From Plumapathes pennacea (Eukaryota; Cnidaria; Anthozoa; Antipatharia; Myriopathidae): a stretch of 64,000 bases of DNA. Location: positions 18,910,683-18,974,682 of the forward strand of contig OZ038468.1 of NCBI GenBank assembly GCA_964036295.1, read 5' to 3'. Positions 26 to 64,000 of this stretch are shown here, in pieces. The translations under genes and the position numbers were made by a program. The notes below the pieces were generated by a model that saw only the letters and a list, made by a program, of their open reading frames with translations, did not search any database and was not told the origin of the DNA. Numbering within the stretch: the first letter of the stretch is position 1; each line of letters begins with the position of its first letter.

Positions 26-7156
<7,131 letters not shown>

Positions 7157-8141: not shown

Positions 8142-10917
8142 TTAGTTGAACTTATACACAAAGTTGGCGTCCGTTTTGCCGAGTCCTTTCCAGCAGTTGG
8201 TGCTTTTTCCGTGTTTGCTGTATTTCACGTTCAGTCCGCTGTAACACAAACCGTAATCCTGCAGTCCGAAGTACGACCAGCCTTTCTTGTGGACCAGTTG
8301 TGCGCATGCCTGGATTGTCTTGTTCAAATTTTTCCAATCCACCTGCATTTTTAAATCTGCCACGAGGTCAGGAAGGGCACGGTCTGATTCCACTTCTTTG
8401 TAACAACCAACTTTTTCGAATGTGATCTTGGCTGCAAGATTTGTAAAAGATGTGTAGTGAAACTATATATATATATATATATAGTTTCGGGAGGATGGTT
8501 TGGGAGACTCCCTCTTCCTACCAAAGGAGGGTAGGAGAATTCATGGGGATTATTTTTTTCTAGAGGCACATGAAAGTGCAACTATCTCAAACCCACGATA
8601 TTATATTTTAACTGAAAGCAGGTGGTGGAAAGTCGCTTCCAATTTTATTTTATTTATTTATTTTTTTTGGATGCCTCTTCTTCCCCCTGCCGAGCCGACG
8701 ATTACTTTTTCAAAGCGGCTTCAAAGAAGATTAAAGAAGTTTAGAATTTGATTTTTGCCTGTCTAAAATTACCAAAAGTCCCTCCATTCCCTCATCCTCG
8801 GGAGACCCAGGGGCAGACCGTAGGGCGACAGGCAAACGGAGTCTCCAAGGATGCCATTCCCTAAACAAACATGGCTGAAGTGTTGCGCATGCGTCTTACC
8901 TGGACACTCTGTCTTCTTGCATTTCTTTGCTTCAGTCGTGGGCTCATTTCCACACAGCTCTTTCCCAGGTTCCTGGACGACGCACTTCCGAGTGCGTGAC
9001 TCTTGACCAGTCCCACACGTCACACTACACGCGGTCCAGTCCGACCAAGGACCGCAGTCACTCACAACTGGACGACAGAAGGAAATTAAAGTTGAAAGAG
9101 TGCTGAGCAGCTGAGGAATGAAGTTCAGTCAGCTTACGTTATCAAATGGCGCAAGCTGTCCTTGAGACAAGGTTGTGCCTAAATCGTACCAGCGGGAAGG
9201 ACAGCGGGAAATAATCAGACTATCCATGTTTAACCGTATCTTCAGTCGAGGATATACAGAGTAAAACGTACAATTTAGTTCGCCACGAGGTTCAATATGT
9301 ATTATAATCGTCTAAACTATGATGAAAAGAAGCGATGTTATTTCACTTAACTCAATAAGGCTTGTTCATTTCATCGTTCGATGAAATATGAAATACAGAG
9401 AAGACAGCCATCTTGGATTTACCGACATCGTCCGATTCTCGGTCGTGAGGCGATCGGGTCTAAACCCGTTTTCAGTCTTGCGCGGCTGTCCTTCCCGTTG
9501 GTACGATCCGATTTATGTACCGATCAATTTGAAACTCGCACATCCCCCCCCCCCCCCCCCCCCCCCCGGGGCATTTGACCGCCTCCCTTGCCCGGGGAGG
9601 CGGGAATTTGACCAACCGCTCTGGCCCGGGGTGGGGCATTTGACCACAACCACGGAGGGGTGGGGAATTTGAACTCGTTCCCTCAATTTCGCCCTGCTTT
9701 ACGCGAAAGTGTTTTAGCTGTGCGTGCGTTGTGTGCTAAGTGTTTATTTTGTCTAAATTGAGAGGCATATCAGTGAATGTTCCAAGCAAAACGTTCATTT
9801 ATCGAGGATCAATCTCCGATGTTGCGCCGTTACGATTTAAACAACTCGCAATAAAGCGCTGTTTTGCTCAAGGTATGGTTTGAAACCTTATCATTGGATG
9901 TTAAATTAATACATTTTGTTAGCCGTACGGTTTAAAGAAAAATGTCAACGACTTTAATACCCTTGGCGCGTCGGAACACGACTCGCGGCATTTCTTGTCA
10001 ACAAATGTGTCAATTCCCTTCGACTTTTTTCCCTTTGCCCAGTATATAGTTTATAAATCTGCTTCAGTCTTGCAATCACTCGTATTTACTTCCTACAGTG
10101 TAATTCGCTTAAAGAAACAATTTTAGCCAACGTACTCACCGTTATCGAGCTCGGACGCGCGCGACTTTCACAATAACAGGTCAAATTGTTAGACGTGTAT
10201 CTGTTTTTCAGCGTTTTTTTGCCCCGGGGTGGGGCATTTGACCACTAAATTCAGCCTTAAACCGGGGCATTTGAACAGTCATTTTGGCCCGAGGGTGGGG
10301 GATTTGGCCATCGGAAAATCGAAAAGTTCAAATGCCCGGGGGGTTGCCCGGGGGGGGGGGGGGGGGATGTGCGAGTTTCGAATTGATTGGTACATTAGGT
10401 ACAACCTTGAGACAAGCCCATGACCTTTGGAACATTATCCCGCCAAGATTTCCCGCTCTTTTGCTGATATTCATCATAATAAATCTTTCCCTAATTATTT
10501 CATTTTGATTCGGTTTTCCTATTTCCAGTCCAGTCTTTCGTGTTTTACAATCCACCTCAAACAGAGTTTCGCCTGACTTCAAATCTCCGCGACAGATCAC
10601 TGTCGCCCTCTGCCACGCTTGTTCAAATGCGGTCGCCCAACGACCTCATTACCTGCCGACTGGGTCGCTGCAGTAATTTATAGCTCCCATCGCTTGGGTG
10701 TGCTGCCGCGTTCTTATGTTCCCTCTCTTTCTCTTTCTTTATTAGTTTTTTTCTGGTCTTTTGCTTGTGCGCTTTTAGCATAAATATTCCCCGCTTCCCC
10801 ATTCAAAAGAATTATGAAGTGGATAGTAAATCCTATTCCTTTACCTTGGTGTGACAGCAGGGCAATAAAACAAAGCCTCGTAATGTAGGGCATCTCTTGT
10901 GTTTGTACTTTCGCCAT
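8142..10917 (-). CDS. Small secreted protein: signal peptide, TSP1 repeat, GCYK-type Cys domain
   Basis: Three exons on the minus strand (10917-10845, 9067-8900, 8431-8142) join in phase to give 176 residues. Exon 1 encodes a signal peptide with core LCFIALL. An in-frame ATG at 10977 would add 20 residues but weakens the signal, so 10917 (or 10893) is preferred. Exon 2 is one thrombospondin type 1 repeat with a WSDW C-mannosylation motif and CSVTCG, the O-fucosylation consensus. Exon 3 is a Cys-rich module with GCYKE, RALP, VDWKNL, ACAQL and GWSYFGLQDYG. I associate this module with TSP1-bearing extracellular proteins of cnidarians; it is WSC-like in spacing. The likely location is the extracellular matrix or mucus, and the function is unknown. 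Intron 1 contains the element at 9515-10395. Confidence 0.82.
8463..8484. repeat. (TA)n run with palindromic flanks
   Basis: A TA dinucleotide run lies inside the last intron of the TSP1 gene, framed by GAAAC and GTTTC so the whole block is self-complementary. Probably a microsatellite. Confidence 0.8.
9515..10395. mobile_element. Non-autonomous element with poly-C/poly-G terminal repeats
   Basis: The ends are inverted copies: ATGTACCGATCAATTTG plus AAACTCGCACATC then a C run (from 9515), and a G run then GATGTGCGAGTTTCG with matching distal sequence ending at 10395. Just inside each end, GGGGCATTTGAC-like units recur, often preceded by GCCCGGGGT (about 9570-9670 and 10222-10345). No transposase frame is visible in the 880 bp. 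It sits in intron 1 of the TSP1 gene. Target-site duplications are not clear. Confidence 0.7.
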
Positions 10918-11415: not shown

Positions 11416-14400
11416 ATGACAAGCTCTCTTTCCTGCTTCAAAATGGTGGAAGGTTTCCTCTCTCTGCCAAAGATTTCTTTTTCTCTTTTGCTGGTGCTGT
11501 ATCTGTGCCTGCCTTCACTGAAAGTCTCTGCAGACAGGACGGTAAGATATCCTCAGATACAATGTTTCTATAGAAAATACCGATTATTTTTACATTGCAT
11601 GCAAGCCGAGGTTGATAAATCCAGTTCCGACGGAAAGACAGCAAATCTTTTGTCACGTTTTGTAGCTCTAAAAATTACACTGCTACTTCTCTGCTCAGAA
11701 ACTGAATATACTTACTTGAACTTGAATAGGAAGGGCAAAGGAATGTACAATAGGAAGACAATCTTTCATCGTCACTGTCTGTCTTGTCTCTGTCTTTGTC
11801 TTTGTCTTTGCCACTATGTGGTGTGTGTCCTTATACTACAGTGAACTCTCTATAAGGCAGACACCCTCTGGACTAGCATTTAATGTCCGCCTTAGAGAGG
11901 TGTTTGCCTTAGTGAGAGTTTAGTTACAGAGAAACACATCAAGAAAGTCAACGAGGACCAAATCTGCATGCTGTTTGCCTTGGAGAGGTGTCTGCTTTAT
12001 GAGAGAGTTGACTGAACATGTATACACACAGGCGGCCCAGACTCCGGGGGTCTGTCTGTCTGTCACGCAGTGATATGTGACACGACCGTTATTGCATAAC
12101 AGAAAATTATAAGGAAAAACCTCGGGGGAGAAACCTCAGCAGGATTTCGGTCACTAACAGTGGCCGTAGTGGCTTGAAATCAACACAAGGGACTCAAGAG
12201 ACCACAAATAACAGTTACACCAGCTTTTATTTTAATTCATTCAAAATCTTACAATTTATCCACATCGTTGCTTTTCCCCATACATTTCCTTATAATTTTC
12301 TGTTACGCAATTACCGTCGTGTCACATATCACTGCGTGACAGACAGACAGACCCCCAGAGTCTGGGCTGCCTGTGGTATACAGTATGTCTGTCTGTCTGT
12401 CTCTAAATCTCAGCTGTGATAATTTGATGAGTTAACTTTTTTTCACAGAGGATGATCAACTGATATTCACCATTCACACCACATTACTGTTATTTTGTTC
12501 CGCAGGTGAAGATTAAAAGTCTAACAAGCCCTGACAAGAAATACAGCATCATTCATGTTAAAGCAAACGACAGCAACCCGGGAAGGAACAACTCCATCCA
12601 CTATTTATACAGCACAATTCGTTCACCCACAATCATCATAGCATACTTTGAAGATGTTCCAGAACCGACACTAACAATCGATTGGAAACTCCTTATCAAT
12701 AATACAAATAGCAAAGCTCTGAAGTTTGATCAGGAATATGACCATTTGATGGCACTTGTAATCCCACGAATAATTGCATTTGAAGACCCAAAAGATGAAC
12801 TCTACTACACAGAGAAGCATGTGAAGGACATAACAACTCATAGCCTTGAGAATGTCTCCTGGGCTGCTCCAAAGATCAAGGGCTCCACTGTGGAATTTAC
12901 AGGAGGTTTTCTTGATGGGGATATCACATTACAGGTAAGAAATCTGGGATTGGTTCATCTGACATTCACAAAGTTTAGCAGAGTTATAGAAATAATTTAG
13001 AATGCCCCACAGCTAGACAGAAACTCTAAGATTTCTTTACAACATGAGTGTGTACAATCAACTCCCTCGTAACAGACATGCCTTTAAGGTGGACAGCTCT
13101 CTAAGACAAACACTTAGTGAGAGTGGTCCCTGTTGTTTCTTCAGCCATTTATTCTGACCTAAAACGGAAAGTTGGCACTGGTCCCGAGGAGTTGACTGTA
13201 CTGTATGCCATATGTATATGTGTAGGGAATGGAGATCGTTTGTGTGGGTATTGGAAGGTACAGAGATGCCAATGGCATGTGATTGTTTGATCTAAGAACT
13301 TTGGTTGCTTCTCTTCAGTGCAATATTTCTGCCAAAGAGGGGCGAGAAGAGGAGCTACCTTCCCTGCTATACACAGAAAACTCCACTAGACTTACCTTCA
13401 CCATGAAACACTTAAAAGGACTCGACGCCTTGAACAAAAAGACTCGTCTTGGCCTGGAACTCTTCTCAGTTACATCACGAAGGAATCGTGATTCAACTTG
13501 TATAGTAGCCCGCAAGACCATTGACGACGAATACACACCAGCTGTGTTTAAAACCATTGTTGTCAATAACACTGGTGTCAGTGGTAATTCATATGTTGCT
13601 TGGAAGCCTGTTGCCTACACAAGCGATGTGAGAAGCCTGGGCAATCAGGTTCCATCCTTTGAATATTTGGTGACTGGACATGTCACAAGTAATGATGAAT
13701 CGAACTGCAAGCCTGTGAGATATTATCCACCTGATTTTAAGAGCATTGCATTTGCTTTTGAGCCAAGTAGCATGAATACATATGGGGTCAACATCTCCTT
13801 TGGCCAGGTAAAGGATGGTTGGTATCAACAATATCAATACCTAAGCTGGTGAGTATTGAATGTATCTCAGAGTTAATGTTGGTTTTGTTTGAGGTCAGAT
13901 ACATAGAGATTACTTCATGGAAAGTGCGCGCGTACGGTTTTTATTCACGAGTTGTGAAGTATCATAAAACGAACGAGCGAGACTTTGCGAGCAAGTGAGT
14001 TTTATGATACGAAACAACGAGTGAATAAAAACTGTACAAAGCACTTTCCATGATGTTTTCTGTTTATTATATACATACTGAGACATTTATGATGGGACCG
14101 GGAAACCCTTTAAAAGTAGTGAAAAATCGTCGTTCGCAGCTTGTGATTGGACGAACGATTTTTTTCACGTGTGAAAAGCGTCGTTCGCGGCCTCTCATTG
14201 GCTAGAACTCATTGGCTAGAACTCATTTGCATACGAAATTTTACGATATGGCTTTTTCATGAGTATGTCTCAGTATGTATATAATAAGAGAGTTTAGGGT
14301 AATTGTTCTAAGTAGTCACTGTCTTAATTCACATCCCCAATATGCATTAGCATGCAGCTGTGGTACACTGGAGTGATAGTGATTCTAGCTGCTTGTAGGT

Positions 14401-21504: not shown

Positions 21505-22599
<1,095 letters not shown>

Positions 22600-27786: not shown

Positions 27787-30700
27787 CTACGCAAAGCGAG
27801 TTTGCGTCTCGTTGAGTAGGCGCTCAATGGCTAAATTTACGTCGCCACCAGTTGCGGCCAAAGCTGAAAAGAACAAAAACGAAATCAAATTCAACTACGA
27901 AAGAAATACCTCTGCTCACCACAAACCAACCTCATCCACTAAAATAACTTCAGAAGGTTAAAGCGAATTCTCAAATTGTGTTTCTTCCAAAGTGCATCAT
28001 TTTATCGTACCGCACCTGCAGTTACAACAAATTCAGACTCCAAAACTCACCCTACTCCTTTACGTATGAAAAACAGGTGCCATGAAAATTGTACCGAGGA
28101 TGTCCAAAAAGCTTTCAAAAACAAATGAAAACGAACCCCGTTTTGTCGCACTTTTTTACCTTGTATATTCTTGGCGCGATCCACAAATCCCATCGCGGCA
28201 AGTTGCTCCAGTTGGGCGCGGTATGTCACTTCAGGGTTCTGAGCCTGCGTGAAAAGTGCAGTTCACGCACAAAATCACGCACGCAACAAAGCACAACACG
28301 TCAAAGTTCACGCACAAAATCACGCACGCAACAAAGCACACCACGTCAAAGTTCACGCACAAAATTTCGCACGCAACAAAACACAACGCGTCAAAGTTAG
28401 GCCCAGCAAACAGGGCTCAAAATATCCCCTAGACCTACACCCAGGGCTAGCAAGAAATAAAGGTGAACTAGTACTAAAGATCTTTACGGGAGGAAGCGCC
28501 CATCACGTAAAGAACGTGGTTTTCAGGGAGTTCGAGATAACTAGATTTTGACTGCGTCGGCGTAGAGAATAACGTGACGTGTATAATGAATCGACTAAGG
28601 GTTGATGTATGAAACTAGACGCCGCGAACGAATTTGAAGCTGACGTTTCCAGCGATAGCCCTTCGTCTGAGCATAATCGTTTACCTGTGACATGGTCTGC
28701 ATCATTCGCCCCATTAAGTTCCCCCACTGTTCCTCGTTGATCCCAGCTACGAGAAAATCACAACACGAAATCAAAAAACGTTCCACCGATAGTAGCCTGC
28801 GTTTTCGATTTTGGCCGCGCGAAACGTGGGGCGAGGGGGGAAGGGGGGAGGTTTCCTTCTCACCTCCCCCCCTCCCCTCGCGTCCTTTTTGCGCTCGCCC
28901 CGATTTTCGCGCGGCCAAAAATCGAAAAAGTTGTCGTATGCGCTCAGAAACCTACGGAAACGCTTGCTTCTCAGGCTACACCGATATAAGCCCTGCCTCA
29001 CTCCAAAGTTCATGATGCCTAAATCTCCCAGCCAGTCTGAGTGGAAGACCAACAAAAGAGTTTCAAACGGCTCTCAGTAACAACACACATGTCGGAATAT
29101 TCACCTAGAGGCGGTGTAGAGCTGGCTGGTGTAGAGCTGGCTGTTGTAGTGGGTACTGAACTGCTGGAAGACGATGCGTTCACGCTGGTGGCGGGTGGTG
29201 GCTGCGGAGGTACTCCCACACCACTCGGCCCACTGCAAAAGGAAGGAGAGATAATGTGAGCATAAACTGGGCCTGGGGTGCATGCCACCGGACAGAACTA
29301 ACAGACAGACCTTCCTTCTGGCAACAGGCCTGGCGCCTCCTGACGAAGCTGCTGCATTCCTTGTTGAATCTGCATTATTGCTTGCATCACTCGTGGATTG
29401 GACATCGCCTGGCGAACCTCAGGGTTCCTCATCTGTGCTGCTACTTCTGGAAGTCTTGTTCGAAACTGAAAAACATGGTAAAGTGCTTGAATGAGTATTC
29501 TTTTGACGCTCGCGACGTGGTCGGTACATGTTCGGTGAAGTAGATGGTACGTGGTCGGTGATAGCTGTATTTTGGTGCATCTTCAAAGCCATGTACAAAA
29601 CAGCGTAAACAACCAGTAGCCGCTGTTTAACAGAGAAGTGAGACAACACTCACCTCTTCAGCCAGTTGGGGGTTACTTTGTAACAAAGGATTGTTCCTGA
29701 GCATCTGTAAGGCAAGCAAATAGCAATGAACCAATTGCTACCGAGCTTCGACATTGTTAAAAACACAGGGGGACAAACTGAGCTAGTATCATCGCAAAAT
29801 GGGAGCACAACAACTTGAACCTTTCCAACTTTGCTCAACTAGTGAACACAACTTGCTGTTAGAATGTTCTCAATGCTAAACCATTCGAGTGGGGAAGCCA
29901 TTACAGGTTTAATTTGACAGTTTAGAAGTCTCCAAGTCAAAGTTTCTTTGGCAATGAACGGGAAGTGACCCCTTTACTCACATTGGCCATCAAATCTGGG
30001 TTCTGGGTCATCTGATTCATCATCTGCTCCATGTACGGTGACTGCATCATGTTCTGCATCAACTGTGGATTGCTCAGCATCTGCTGCGTAAGACTTTGCA
30101 TCCCAGGGGACTGGAAGATCCCAGATGCCGCAGATGGTGTCTGAGCACTTTAAACAAAAATTGTAGAGAACAAAATAATGAATTACATGGCCATTTTTCA
30201 GCCAATCAGAAGTGTTAGCTTACATCCAGGAACATGAAAATAATTACTGTAAAAGATGTCTGAAACTGAATTGTTTCAAGTTTAACACAAACCTCTGTGC
30301 AGTGGGAGCAGTTGAGGTAGTTGTAGTAGGTGCTGCTTGTGGCTGTGTGGTGGTCGAGGCTCGCTGAGGAGTGGTGGGTGCAGGGCTTTGTCCTGGTGGA
30401 GCCCAAGGATTAGGCAAGGGAGAGGTGTTCTCTGTTCCTCTTTGTGGATTAGCTTGGGAAGAATCAGTGAACAGCACTAATGTCAACAAGGTCAGGGAAA
30501 CATAAAACGAACACAAAACACCCAAACTCCTTTCCAGGTGGGCCCTTTACAGATAAAAGTCACGTCATATAGCTGCTTCTTATGGATCATGGGGGTATAG
30601 TTGCCCTAAAATGATTTCAACTCTGGTGGGATGGTTTTCTATCACCAGCAGTGTAAAATGACAAGTAAAACAGCAGATTTGAAATTGAAACTCATTTCTA

Positions 30701-35648: not shown

Positions 35649-37719
35649 GAGGGCGGTGGGGGTACTCCAAAGTGTATCATAATATTATTTTGTCTGAAAT
35701 ACCAGTAGTCAGGTCTAAATATCAACTCACATATTTATCCCACCCCACCCCACCCCTCCCCCGAATAGGATGAGCGGCCCTTCTCAGATCAAGAGGAGGA
35801 GAAGTTACAGGGAGCTCTAGGGATTGATGCTGATGATCTGCAGGTGGTACTGGAAACCTCTGCCTTCCTTCTAGAACAGGTTTGTGTTACAAGTCAACTT
35901 CTACCCCCTTCCTGCTGGTAATTTCCCCTTCTCAAGATTCAGCTACATGTCTGTCATCTGGCAAATACATTATTTTGGTCAATCGTTTACTTTTGCTCAG
36001 ATTTTCTGTCAGAGCTGTTTATCCATTTCTGACCCCACCCATAGTGCACATATAGAGCATACCAGTATATATATATATATATACAGTCGCTTCAAAAAAG
36101 GTTGACCCTCAAAAATAGCAAATAGGCAAATACCACGTCCGAAAGGGATGTTGGGATTCGTGATTAATTTCAGTTTGTTTACTGAATAGCCGGGAATTTA
36201 GGCAAATATAGGCAAATATGTTATTCCCCAGCAAAGTTCACACTCTACACACACGACATGACTTATTAGAATGTGAATATTATCAGATTCATATCATTGC
36301 ATTTATTTCACAGAATCCCTTTCGGTCGTGGTATTTTTGAGGGTCAACCTTTTTTGAAATGACTGTATATATATATATTTTTTTTTTTTTTTTCTTTTTT
36401 TTATTCCTGCAGGCAGCTTACCACAATGCCAAACCAGCTGTGTTAAAACAACAGTTGGGGAACATTTCACTGGCTGAAGACAAGGTACGGACATGTTGTA
36501 ATATTAAGTAAATGTTGACAGGCATGAAATTTTGGCCTTGAATTTAACATTGTACCTCGATTACCATCAAGGCGTTTTGAATGATGAGAATCAAACAGAC
36601 TGCTAAAATTCATATCCTTGATAATAATCAAGTTCTTTATTTACTCTGATTCATTTTTGTGCAGGGAACAGACTTAGAGAGTACTGCAATCAATCATTCT
36701 GGGTACAGTTGCAGGTTAAATCTTTAGCAGTGGCTTTAGTGGCTCATGTAATGTAATATGCTTACCCTCCCCTCCCTAGGGTTTCCTGCTTTCTATGTAA
36801 TCACGTGACAATCCGGAATAAACAAGTTCTTTTCAACGCCAGCCTGGCAAGTGTTTTATTTTACAGCTTGTTCTCTCTTGTAGATTGAAGCAATAGTTGG
36901 AGTTTGGTCTGAAAATTGTAAGTCTGTCATAGAAAAGCTTCGGCAAAGAAGTCTTGCACCAAAACAGGTACAGTGACAGATCAGACTGCTTGCTTTTAGT
37001 ATCTTGTTATTACAACACCCTGAACTCCAAACGCATCTTCTCTTTTCTTCTCATCACCACTTTCTTTTATCTACTCACCCTTTTCCTTCTCGTCTTCCCT
37101 TTCTTTTCCCTTCTTGTTTTTTTCTCATCTTTCTCTCCATCTCTTCCCTATCTGCTCATTTTTCTCTGATTCTTCTCCATTGTTCCCTTCTTTTGACCCT
37201 TCTCATCTTTCCCCCTCACTCTCTTTAACTCCCATCACTTCTCACATCGTTTCTTTCACTTGTTTTCCATTTTCTCTTGCTTACTATTGTTCTCATACTC
37301 ATCAGCTGGAGTCTGTGAACTGGCGTCTGAATCTTCAAATGGCTCAAGCGAACATGGCCAAGATGAAGCTGCCCAATGCAATGTTTGACTTGCATCTCTC
37401 CTCTGGTGGTCAGGTCAATATCTAGTTTATAGTAATGGCATCAAATTCATGTTCATTTTTCACGTTTTAACTAAAGATTTTTTTAACATGTTTATCTCTT
37501 TGTATTAAAGAACCAGGAGAAGATTCAAGTGGAATTCACTCATGAAGAGCTGTACGCATTTTACAATCAGGTTTGTGTTATAGTTGAAAAGTCCGTCCGG
37601 GCCTTCTTTTTTTTTTTCCTTTTTTATTCTTTTTTTTTTTTTTTTTTTCATTCAATTTTTTTTTCTTCGCCTTTGTATAGCTTGAAACCATTCAAAGCCA
37701 GCTGGATTCCCTTGGTTAA
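34977..37719 (+). CDS. COMMD10: COMM domain-containing protein 10
   Basis: Eight exons: 34977-35005, 35362-35452, 35769-35879, 36413-36484, 36884-36967, 37306-37413, 37511-37570, 37681-37719. All are in phase, giving 197 residues (human about 202). COMMD10 is a subunit of the COMMD ring of the Commander complex, which works with retriever in endosomal cargo recycling. The N-terminal helical part shows [35 protein letters not shown] and a KPA turn. The COMM domain (about residues 129-197) has [13 protein letters not shown] with the conserved Trp, [14 protein letters not shown] and the terminal [12 protein letters not shown], each matching COMMD10 rather than other COMMDs as I recall them. AATAAA at 37915-37920 may be the poly-A signal. 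Confidence 0.95.
35617..35647 (+). repeat. Poly-G run, 31 bases
   Basis: An uninterrupted G tract lies in COMMD10 intron 2. Other G/C homopolymers are at 9544-9567 (C), about 51258-51277 (C) and 56080-56107 (G). Confidence 0.95.
36083..36366. mobile_element. MITE with ACAGTCGCTTCAAAA-type inverted ends
   Basis: The left end ACAGTCGCTTCAAAAAAGG plus TTGACCCTCAAAAATA is mirrored at the right end, which finishes ...TGACTGT at 36366. TATATA runs flank both sides, consistent with TA target insertion of the Tc1/mariner kind. About 284 bp, in COMMD10 intron 3, non-coding. Confidence 0.75.
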
Positions 37720-46963: not shown

Positions 46964-47785
46964 TCAAATCCTCAAATATGGATGAACATGTTTGGAACTC
47001 TCGCAGAGATTACACTGAGGACAGTTCATGTGCTGATAATACGGCAGGAAAGGAAGCTGTGATCGCATGAACAGCGGATCCGAACCCATTGAATTGGAAT
47101 GATTGTAATATGACTGGAAAGGCAGAAAGGGCGCAAGCCCTGGCAACTTTGGCGGATCCAATGAACTAAAAGCGCCAATCGGAGAGGGAAGAAACGAAGC
47201 TCCCGCACCGAGGTGGCTCTGGAAATCGGCGGAGGGTGAAAATGTTGGCCGGCCAGTCGGGCCAGTTAGCACCTTGTTATCTATCGTGCTCGGATCCTGT
47301 CGTTTGAATCTGGTCTTTCTCCTCAAGAAGCTTCCGTTGTCGAACATGTTGTAGCTCTCCGGGTCCAGCGTCCAGAAGTTTCCCTTCAAAGGTTCGTCCG
47401 ATTTGATTCCTGTCTTGATAAAGCAATCGTTCAGAGACAAGTTGTTGCGAATGCAGATTTTCCACGACGGGTAAGTCTCCCGGTAAAAGGAAAACCGGTC
47501 CCTGATAAACTTACAGATGCCGTCTAAGGTCAGACGCTTCTCCGGTGAATTCTGTATTGCCATCGCGATCAGAGCGATGTAGGAGTACGGAGGACGTCGA
47601 CGTGATTTACGGTTGGTTCGTTGTTTCTTATTCTCTCCGCCACTTGCTTCATGTCTCCCCTCTTCGCGTTCTTCACCGCCTTCAGCTGAACTGTTACAAC
47701 TCGCTTCTTGATGTCGAAGAGCTTCTTTCTCTTGGTTATTCTCATCAACCGCTCGCTCGTTTCTCTGTGTATCTATTCCCTCCAT
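46964..47785 (-). CDS. Divergent forkhead (Fox) transcription factor, single exon
   Basis: One 273-residue open frame with an acidic N-terminus, a forkhead domain at about residues 64-160 and a Pro/Phe-rich C-terminus. Fox proteins bind DNA through a winged helix. The start [20 protein letters not shown] and the wing [14 protein letters not shown] and RFKR are canonical, closest to FoxD/FoxE-like class I domains as I recall them. The recognition helix is not canonical. The usual W-x-N-S-I-R-H-N-L-S reads [10 protein letters not shown], so the base-contacting Asn and His (here Ile110 and Asn114) are replaced. The frame is intact and the rest of the domain is well kept, so this looks like a functional but altered factor rather than a pseudogene. 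The subfamily is unresolved. Confidence 0.88.
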
Positions 47786-62554: not shown

Positions 62555-63350
62555 ATGGACTCCTTTGCTTTTTCGGGTAAGCCTCTTCTTCAAGACTTTA
62601 TTACCCTTCAGAATAATATCACTCAAACAGATGCATGACATTTTCGAATCCTTTTTTCAAAACTACGGCCAAATAAGAGATTGTTTTAACTTTAAACAAC
62701 GTTTGACGAACTGACGAAACAACTTAATATGGTATGTTTGATTTAATGCTGTTTATTTCTTAAAGACATTACTGAATTTGTTGCTTCACCAGGACAAGGT
62801 CGAATGAACCAGCTTGGCGGAGTGTTTATCAATGGCAGACCTTTGCCCAAAGTTCTGAGGTGGCGGATCATCGAGTTGGCACAGTTAGGGGTGCGACCTT
62901 GTGATATCAGCCGCCAACTCAGGGTATCCCACGGCTGTGTGAGTAAAATCTTGTGTAGATACCAAGAGACTGGATCAGTGGAACCAGGCGCTGCTCCATC
63001 CAACAAACCCCGAGATGTAACGCCGGAGATAGAACACAAAATTGATGAGTATCGCCAGCAAAACGGAGGAATGTTCTCATGGGAGGTTCGAGATCGGCTT
63101 CTACGCGATGAAGTTTGCTCTAAAACCACAGTGCCCTCCCTAAGTGCCATCAGCCAGATCCTAAAGAGCAAGATAGTCCAAGAGACAGCGCAGAGAGAAG
63201 ACGGGTTGGCTAGGAAGTCAGAGGCAAGTCGAAGCAAGAGCTTCACGGAGGAGGAAGTGATAGTGAAAGAGGAGCCGATGCAAGATGAGGGAAGCCACGA
63301 ACGCGACGTTCCCAGCCCGAGCGACAGTCCCCACCGCTCTTACTCGCCAG
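62555..63350 (+). CDS. Pax transcription factor, 5' part with paired domain
   Basis: Exon 62555-62576 (MDSFAFS plus one base) joins exon 62793-63350 in phase to give [17 protein letters not shown], the normal entry into a paired domain. 193 codons are in the window and the gene continues past the right edge at the donor CCAG/GTGTGT. Paired domain, about residues 8-135: [63 protein letters not shown]. The CRYQETGS stretch is Pax3/7-like, so the cnidarian PaxD class is the best guess, and a homeodomain would then be expected in later exons. After the domain, VIVKEEP fits a SUMO-acceptor site and an SP-rich segment follows. TTTTCCAG just before 62551 suggests a 5' UTR exon spliced to this one. 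Confidence 0.9.
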
Positions 63351-64000
63351 GTGTGTATAAACAAAGTGAATCAGCTTGGGTGAAGTATTTTTACAGCTAA
63401 AAACTATTTTACAGGTGAATTTACGATACTCTATGGGGTGCGTTTTTAATATCTTTCCGTGCTCTGAGCCGTTAGAAAACAAGCTAGCGTTGCGTGAATT
63501 TTCCCTCAATGCATTATCATCAATCAATAAGTGTAGATATCGGCCCCACTTCAGGCGATTATCAGGGAAAAGCCGCATAAGTATAAACCACGTAGTCACG
63601 ACATCATGAACACGCCGGATCAGCCCAACGCAGCACTTAAGTTTTACTCGATATTTTCGCCGCATAAAAAGAGAAAGGAATTCATCTTTCTCGACATAAC
63701 AAGGTTGACTTGTCGCTGACGTGTATTTAGCCACGCGAATCACGCCGCGTTACCGGTGTTTTGTTGCGGGAAGAAAGGATCACTTGATAATCAAGGAAAT
63801 GCAAGAGATATGTGAAGTCATTGAGAAACAAAGCTTATGACAGTATAATTACATCTCCCACTGAATGAAACAAACCTTTTTCCTCGTGAATGATACTTGT
63901 TTAGCCCCATTTATCATGCTTGGACAAAGAAACTCCTGTCTTTCTTTTGAGAACCACTTCAGATACAACCACACTATAGTGATCACAATGGAAAAACAAA
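63351..64000 (+). other. Pax intron, to the window edge
   Basis: Sequence after the Pax donor at 63350. No further Pax exon is recognisable before the edge. Open frames on either strand here lack domains. Confidence 0.6.

Follow-up and report, generated by a model that had tools for sequence, protein, structure and literature searches.

An intact animal forkhead gene encodes a recognition helix with replacements at two of its three base-reading positions

Forkhead helix 3 reads DNA through three residues: an Asn at position i, an Arg at i+3 and a His at i+4 (PMC9701222). The Asn makes a bidentate contact with adenine, and the His bonds with thymine (PMC7062188). The helix-3 Asn is present in 47 of 49 human FOX proteins (PMC9701222), and all FOX members of a human alignment carry the His, which is termed invariant there (PMC12135187). 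A forkhead gene in a 64,000-nucleotide stretch of Plumapathes pennacea DNA, the whole of which is called the window here, was initially annotated as encoding a protein that has lost both the Asn and the His. This locus raises the question of whether such a protein is genuinely encoded, and of how a forkhead with this helix might meet DNA.

The coding region and the recognition helix (H3) were located as follows.

46964-47785, minus strand: forkhead gene ORF, single exon, intact, 273 aa, with a Pfam PF00250 match and an in-frame TAA before the ATG
47297-47596, minus strand: forkhead domain, residues 64-163, aligned without gaps to FoxD3 (2hfh) and FoxC2 (6ako)
47513-47515, minus strand: C91 in helix 2, placed by alignment at the site of the Arg-restraining Tyr of most Fox proteins
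47435-47464, minus strand: recognition helix H3, W108-S117, from codon reading
47456-47458, minus strand: I110 (ATC), replacing the canonical Asn (position i)
47453-47455, minus strand: C111 (TGC), replacing Ser (i+1)
47447-47449, minus strand: R113 (CGC), the base-reading Arg (i+3), retained
47444-47446, minus strand: N114 (AAC), replacing the His described as invariant (i+4)

The ORF contains no internal stops, and the TAA lies immediately 5′ of the ATG. Residues 64-148 match Pfam PF00250 (Forkhead) over profile positions 2-87 of 88 with an E value of 1e-30 and a score of 106.1 bits, which exceeds the curated cut-off of 27 bits and places the protein in the forkhead family. The top PDB matches of the ORF are FoxD3 (Genesis, 2hfh; 5.7e-42) and FoxC2 (6ako; 7e-42), to which the domain is 66% and 64% identical, respectively. 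A FoxQ2-type forkhead was considered and set aside on these matches, from a comparison without a FoxQ2 sequence. A tblastn search with the domain revealed no second forkhead copy in the 64-kb window, the three other matches having E values of only 5.3-6.9. As expected for an animal gene, no relatives were confirmed in IMG/VR or in GTDB prokaryote genomes among 3, 35, 36 and 94 pattern matches.

The window contains 211 stop-to-stop ORFs of at least 70 aa, of which 31 were scanned with Pfam. The scans and repeat analysis gave the following additional features.

2027-3241, plus strand: 405-aa stop-to-stop ORF with no Pfam match
3503-4059: CAT trinucleotide array of ~186 copies with 85% matches, crossed by long ORFs on both strands
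6352-6822, plus strand: RasGEF-domain ORF
8772-9128, minus strand: thrombospondin type 1 (TSP1) ORF
12464-13849, plus strand: two ORFs matching successive parts of the lysosomal protein NCU-G1, probably two exons
21616-22596, plus strand: polyubiquitin gene of four head-to-tail 228-base units
28260-28398: roughly three tandem units of 45 bases each, with 93% matches
37024-37422, plus strand: COMM-domain ORF
62747-63397, plus strand: single uninterrupted exon with a paired-box (Pax) domain (PF00292 match at 4.5e-59; nearest PDB entry Pax5, 1.2e-53), ~15 kb from the forkhead gene

The Pax, polyubiquitin, NCU-G1, TSP1, RasGEF and COMM-domain exons are consistent with an animal genome. Scanning the window for tRNAs and for Rfam families gave no hits.

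The canonical Fox H3 reads W-x-N-S-I-R-H-N-L-S. In the window protein, three positions of this motif are changed (N110I, S111C and H114N), and the remaining codons are W108 (TGG, 47462-47464), K109 (AAA), I112 (ATT), N115 (AAC, 47441-47443), L116 (TTG) and S117 (TCT, 47435-47437). Where the canonical helix has Asn, Arg and His at i, i+3 and i+4, this helix has Ile, Arg and Asn; the Arg alone is kept. The codons and the 273-aa stop-free ORF thus bear out the initial annotation of a helix without the canonical Asn and His in an intact frame, and published work agrees with its identification of these two as base-contact residues (PMC7062188, PMC9701222, PMC12135187). Its claim that both base-contact residues are lost holds for the Asn and the His but passes over a third base reader, the retained Arg at i+3. 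The span that it gave for the motif, 47441-47464, covers W108-N115, whereas the full motif that it quoted extends to 47435. The Fox protein of this animal gene is thus intact, and two of its three base readers have been exchanged.

Each odd H3 codon is one base off the canonical codon (ATC for AAC, TGC for AGC and AAC for CAC). Three separate one-base differences rule out a single frameshift as the cause of the odd residues. That these differences fall at three functional positions also makes it very unlikely that the helix reflects an error of sequencing or assembly or a gene copy in decay, as do the 273 codons free of stops and frameshifts, the 21 of 24 near-invariant domain columns that are intact (see below) and the GC content at third codon positions (GC3), which is 0.67 in the domain and 0.53 over the whole ORF in a window with 41% GC. 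On the side of error or decay are the unevenness of GC3 along the ORF (0.34 5′ of the domain and 0.50 after it) and the sequence 3′ of the stop, where, of the four polyadenylation signals sought in 500 bases, the variant AGTAAA alone is present.

The rarity of the H3 residues was assessed by eye in the alignments of 31 out of 46 distinct forkhead sequences listed from the PDB. Among these 31 rows, position i is Asn in 28 and Asp in 3, all of which are FoxH1; at i+1, 26 rows have Ser and 5, each of them a FoxP, have Ala; and positions i+3 and i+4 are Arg and His, respectively, in every row. None of the 31 rows compared has Ile at position i. The helix-2 site of C91 is Tyr in 26 of 31, Cys in 2 (the FoxD3/Genesis sequence) and Ile or Leu in the 3 FoxH1 rows. 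In the literature, neither RICIRNN nor a 22-residue stretch was found in the running text of 5.39 million papers, although alignments of this kind are mostly printed in figures, and titles on atypical, divergent or degenerate forkheads contained, among the matches listed, no animal Fox protein without both the Asn and the His.

A second comparison used 13 near Fox domains, 5 from the PDB and 8 human rows entered by hand. Across these rows 24 columns are invariant, of which the window protein keeps 21 and breaks 3, all in H3; each of the 13 rows, given the same treatment, shows 0-2 breaks. H3 holds 6 of the 24 invariant columns, and three random breaks would all fall within it about 1 time in 100, whereas pooling H3 with wing 1 gives a Fisher p of 0.017; both chance figures (~0.01 and 0.017) serve as guides and are not probabilities in the strict sense, since these very residues are what singled the protein out and most of the rows (8 of 13) were hand-entered. 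When the comparison is limited to the 15 rows from the PDB, invariance holds for 10 columns, and the window protein departs from it only at the His; when all 23 other rows are used, 8 columns remain invariant and the His is again the sole break. The smaller number of breaks in these other row sets indicates that the three-break result leans partly on the hand-entered rows and on the omission of distant Fox classes. The departure is real and, for so well known a family, unusual, because it does away with a residue regarded as invariant.

The two wings of the domain differ in their conservation.

47375-47413, minus strand: wing 1, diverged, residues 125-137, 4/13 identical to FoxD3 and 3/13 to FoxC2
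47297-47344, minus strand: wing 2, basic and conserved, residues 148-163, 13/16 identical to FoxD3

The earlier description of the rest of the forkhead as conserved therefore stands for wing 2 and for the 21 of 24 near-invariant columns, and fails for wing 1. Three features go beyond that description: the retained Arg at i+3, the helix-2 Cys in place of Tyr (as in FoxD3) and the divergence of wing 1. The window protein differs from FoxD3 at 4 of 10 positions in H3, at 9 of the 13 wing 1 positions and at 22 of the remaining 77; the corresponding values for FoxD3 versus FoxC2 are 0 of 10, 6 of 13 and 23 of 77. In a 14-row tree, the terminal branch of the window protein is 0.53, compared with a median of 0.25. 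Removal of the H3 columns alone gives 0.47 (median, 0.29), and removal of the H3 and wing 1 columns together gives 0.19 (median, 0.22). These values indicate an ordinary rate of change for the scaffold, with the excess confined to two segments that face the DNA. Most of this excess comes from wing 1, and the breaks of otherwise invariant residues come from H3.

The window protein is sister to FoxD3, with support of 87/85 in a 24-row tree and 86/87 in the 14-row tree, FoxD being represented by one row only. A constrained grouping with FoxC2 is not rejected (p-AU of 0.20), and one with FoxE, represented by two hand-entered human rows and no cnidarian FoxE-like sequence, is borderline (p-AU of 0.055). 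Without H3 and wing 1, the protein is most similar to FoxC2 (71% identity). The protein shares with FoxD3 (Genesis, 2hfh) the helix-2 Cys (GIC) and a Pro-x-Trp before helix 3, and it differs from FoxD3 in having I/C/N for the helix-3 N/S/H and in its diverged wing 1. Many FoxD proteins have an EH1 Groucho-binding motif (PMC1939712); the 273 aa contain no match to F.[IV]..[ILVM] or FS[IV]. This absence is a weak criterion for FoxD here, because EH1 is missing also in FoxD- and FoxC-related proteins of N. vectensis and in a cnidarian FoxE-related protein (PMC1939712). The nearest kin thus appears, not decisively, to be FoxD3, and we label the protein FoxD-like (class I) rather than a member of FoxD. 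A possible counterpart in Nematostella is a Fox duplicate restricted to hexacorals, which goes by both NvfoxE-like and NvfoxD3-like and was placed in FoxE (PMC13345560, a 2026 preprint). Cnidocyte gene expression in Nematostella requires NvfoxE-like, which was undetected in Stylophora cnidocytes (PMC13345560, preprint). The window gene may be an orthologue or relative of NvfoxE-like, which is a lead only; the passages of PMC13345560 used here are silent on its helix-3 residues.

A different DNA site, weak binding and no specific binding had all been proposed as outcomes of the altered helix, and the comparisons lend this range partial support. Judged from its sequence, the window protein probably departs from other Fox proteins in how it reads DNA or in how strongly it does so, the binding then being weaker. 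FoxH1 (7yz7, 7yzb and 7yzg) offers a natural parallel, as a Fox protein in which the helix-3 Asn and the helix-2 Tyr are both replaced and the Arg at i+3 is freed. In most Fox proteins the helix-2 Tyr partly ties up this Arg, whereas in FoxH1, which has no such Tyr, the Arg grips guanine directly (PMC9701222). With Asp at i and Leu or Ile for the helix-2 Tyr, FoxH1 reads GG/GT sites through the freed Arg (PMC9701222), a precedent that shows that a changed Asn can yield a new site. The parallel is incomplete: FoxH1 has Asp at i and keeps the His, a combination absent from the window protein, and it is not the sister of that protein in the tree.

For the position of the His, the comparison is FOXC2 H122N, which carries the identical His-to-Asn change at i+4 (PMC12135187). 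It differs as a mutant made in the laboratory, which lung cancers are also reported to carry (PMC12135187), with an otherwise canonical helix and the Asn at i present. Its binding is weak and pH independent, with KA values as printed of 0.14 at pH 7.0 and 0.10 at pH 7.5, compared with 0.75 and 0.18 for wild-type FOXC2 (PMC12135187).

On balance we lean, with roughly even confidence, towards a functional FoxD-like forkhead factor that has a remodelled DNA-reading surface on an ordinary scaffold and an altered or relaxed, Arg-centred recognition. Helix 3 would still dock in the major groove through backbone contacts and wing 2. Arg113 would be the main base reader, unrestrained because Cys91 takes the place of the helix-2 Tyr; Asn114 would offer a weaker hydrogen bond than His and no pH response; and Ile110 would be incapable of the bidentate adenine contact. 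The binding expected from such a surface would be weaker and pH independent, with a relaxed or shifted core in which the TGT half is still the anchor, rather than the canonical RYAAAYA. Weaker, pH-independent and Arg-centred recognition is favoured by the effect of the His-to-Asn change in FOXC2 and by the predicted lack of an adenine contact at Ile110. The pattern of retention (Arg at i+3, 21 of the 24 near-invariant columns and the basic wing 2) and change (Asn, Ser, His and wing 1) speaks for remodelling, as do the intact ORF, the strong forkhead match and the concentration of excess change in H3 and wing 1. Against it, the branch shortens chiefly on removal of wing 1, which is variable in ordinary Fox proteins too; Ile at i is without precedent in the 31 rows; and FoxD3 also has the helix-2 Cys, so a freed Arg alone need not create a new site. 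The AlphaFold2 single-sequence model of the protein was poor (mean pLDDT of 56.0 and pTM of 0.47).

A forkhead that no longer reads DNA by sequence, and that acts through partners or competes with ordinary Fox proteins, is the main alternative, though a rather doubtful one. FoxO1 N208A/H212R, altered at the same two positions, did not activate G6pc or Apom (PMC8970673), a loss at the two targets tested that also counts against remodelling; FoxOs can act also as transcriptional coregulators (PMC8970673), and wing 1, another DNA-contacting part, has likewise diverged. Release from DNA binding would be expected to bring loss of the Arg at i+3, Ser117 and the basic wing 2, all of which are retained, and a corepressor motif of the EH1 type was not found in the 273 aa, although other partners are possible. 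It is less probable still, and in our view unlikely, that the ordinary forkhead site is simply bound more weakly, the changes being near-neutral, with Asn substituting for His and wing 2 giving affinity. FOXC2 H122N still binds the canonical site (PMC12135187), and FOXO3 H212R still induced cell death, less than the construct without H212R (PMC6919977). In the window protein, however, three conserved residues are altered together, Ile is predicted to be unable to make the adenine contact of Asn (described in PMC7062188) and wing 1 is altered as well.

The His has been described as a pH sensor, and the authors of that work considered a domain-swap test with members lacking the His inapplicable to FOX (PMC12135187). 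A natural Fox protein that has Asn for the His and no helix-3 Asn would supply the natural test that is missing for how forkhead specificity and pH response arise, and could reveal the way in which Fox duplicates stay clear of one another's targets. It is possible, and we suggest it only tentatively, that a lineage of animals keeps a conserved Fox protein without the pH-sensing His and the adenine-reading Asn, and with it a new pH-insensitive code built on a freed Arg and an Ile/Cys/Asn surface.
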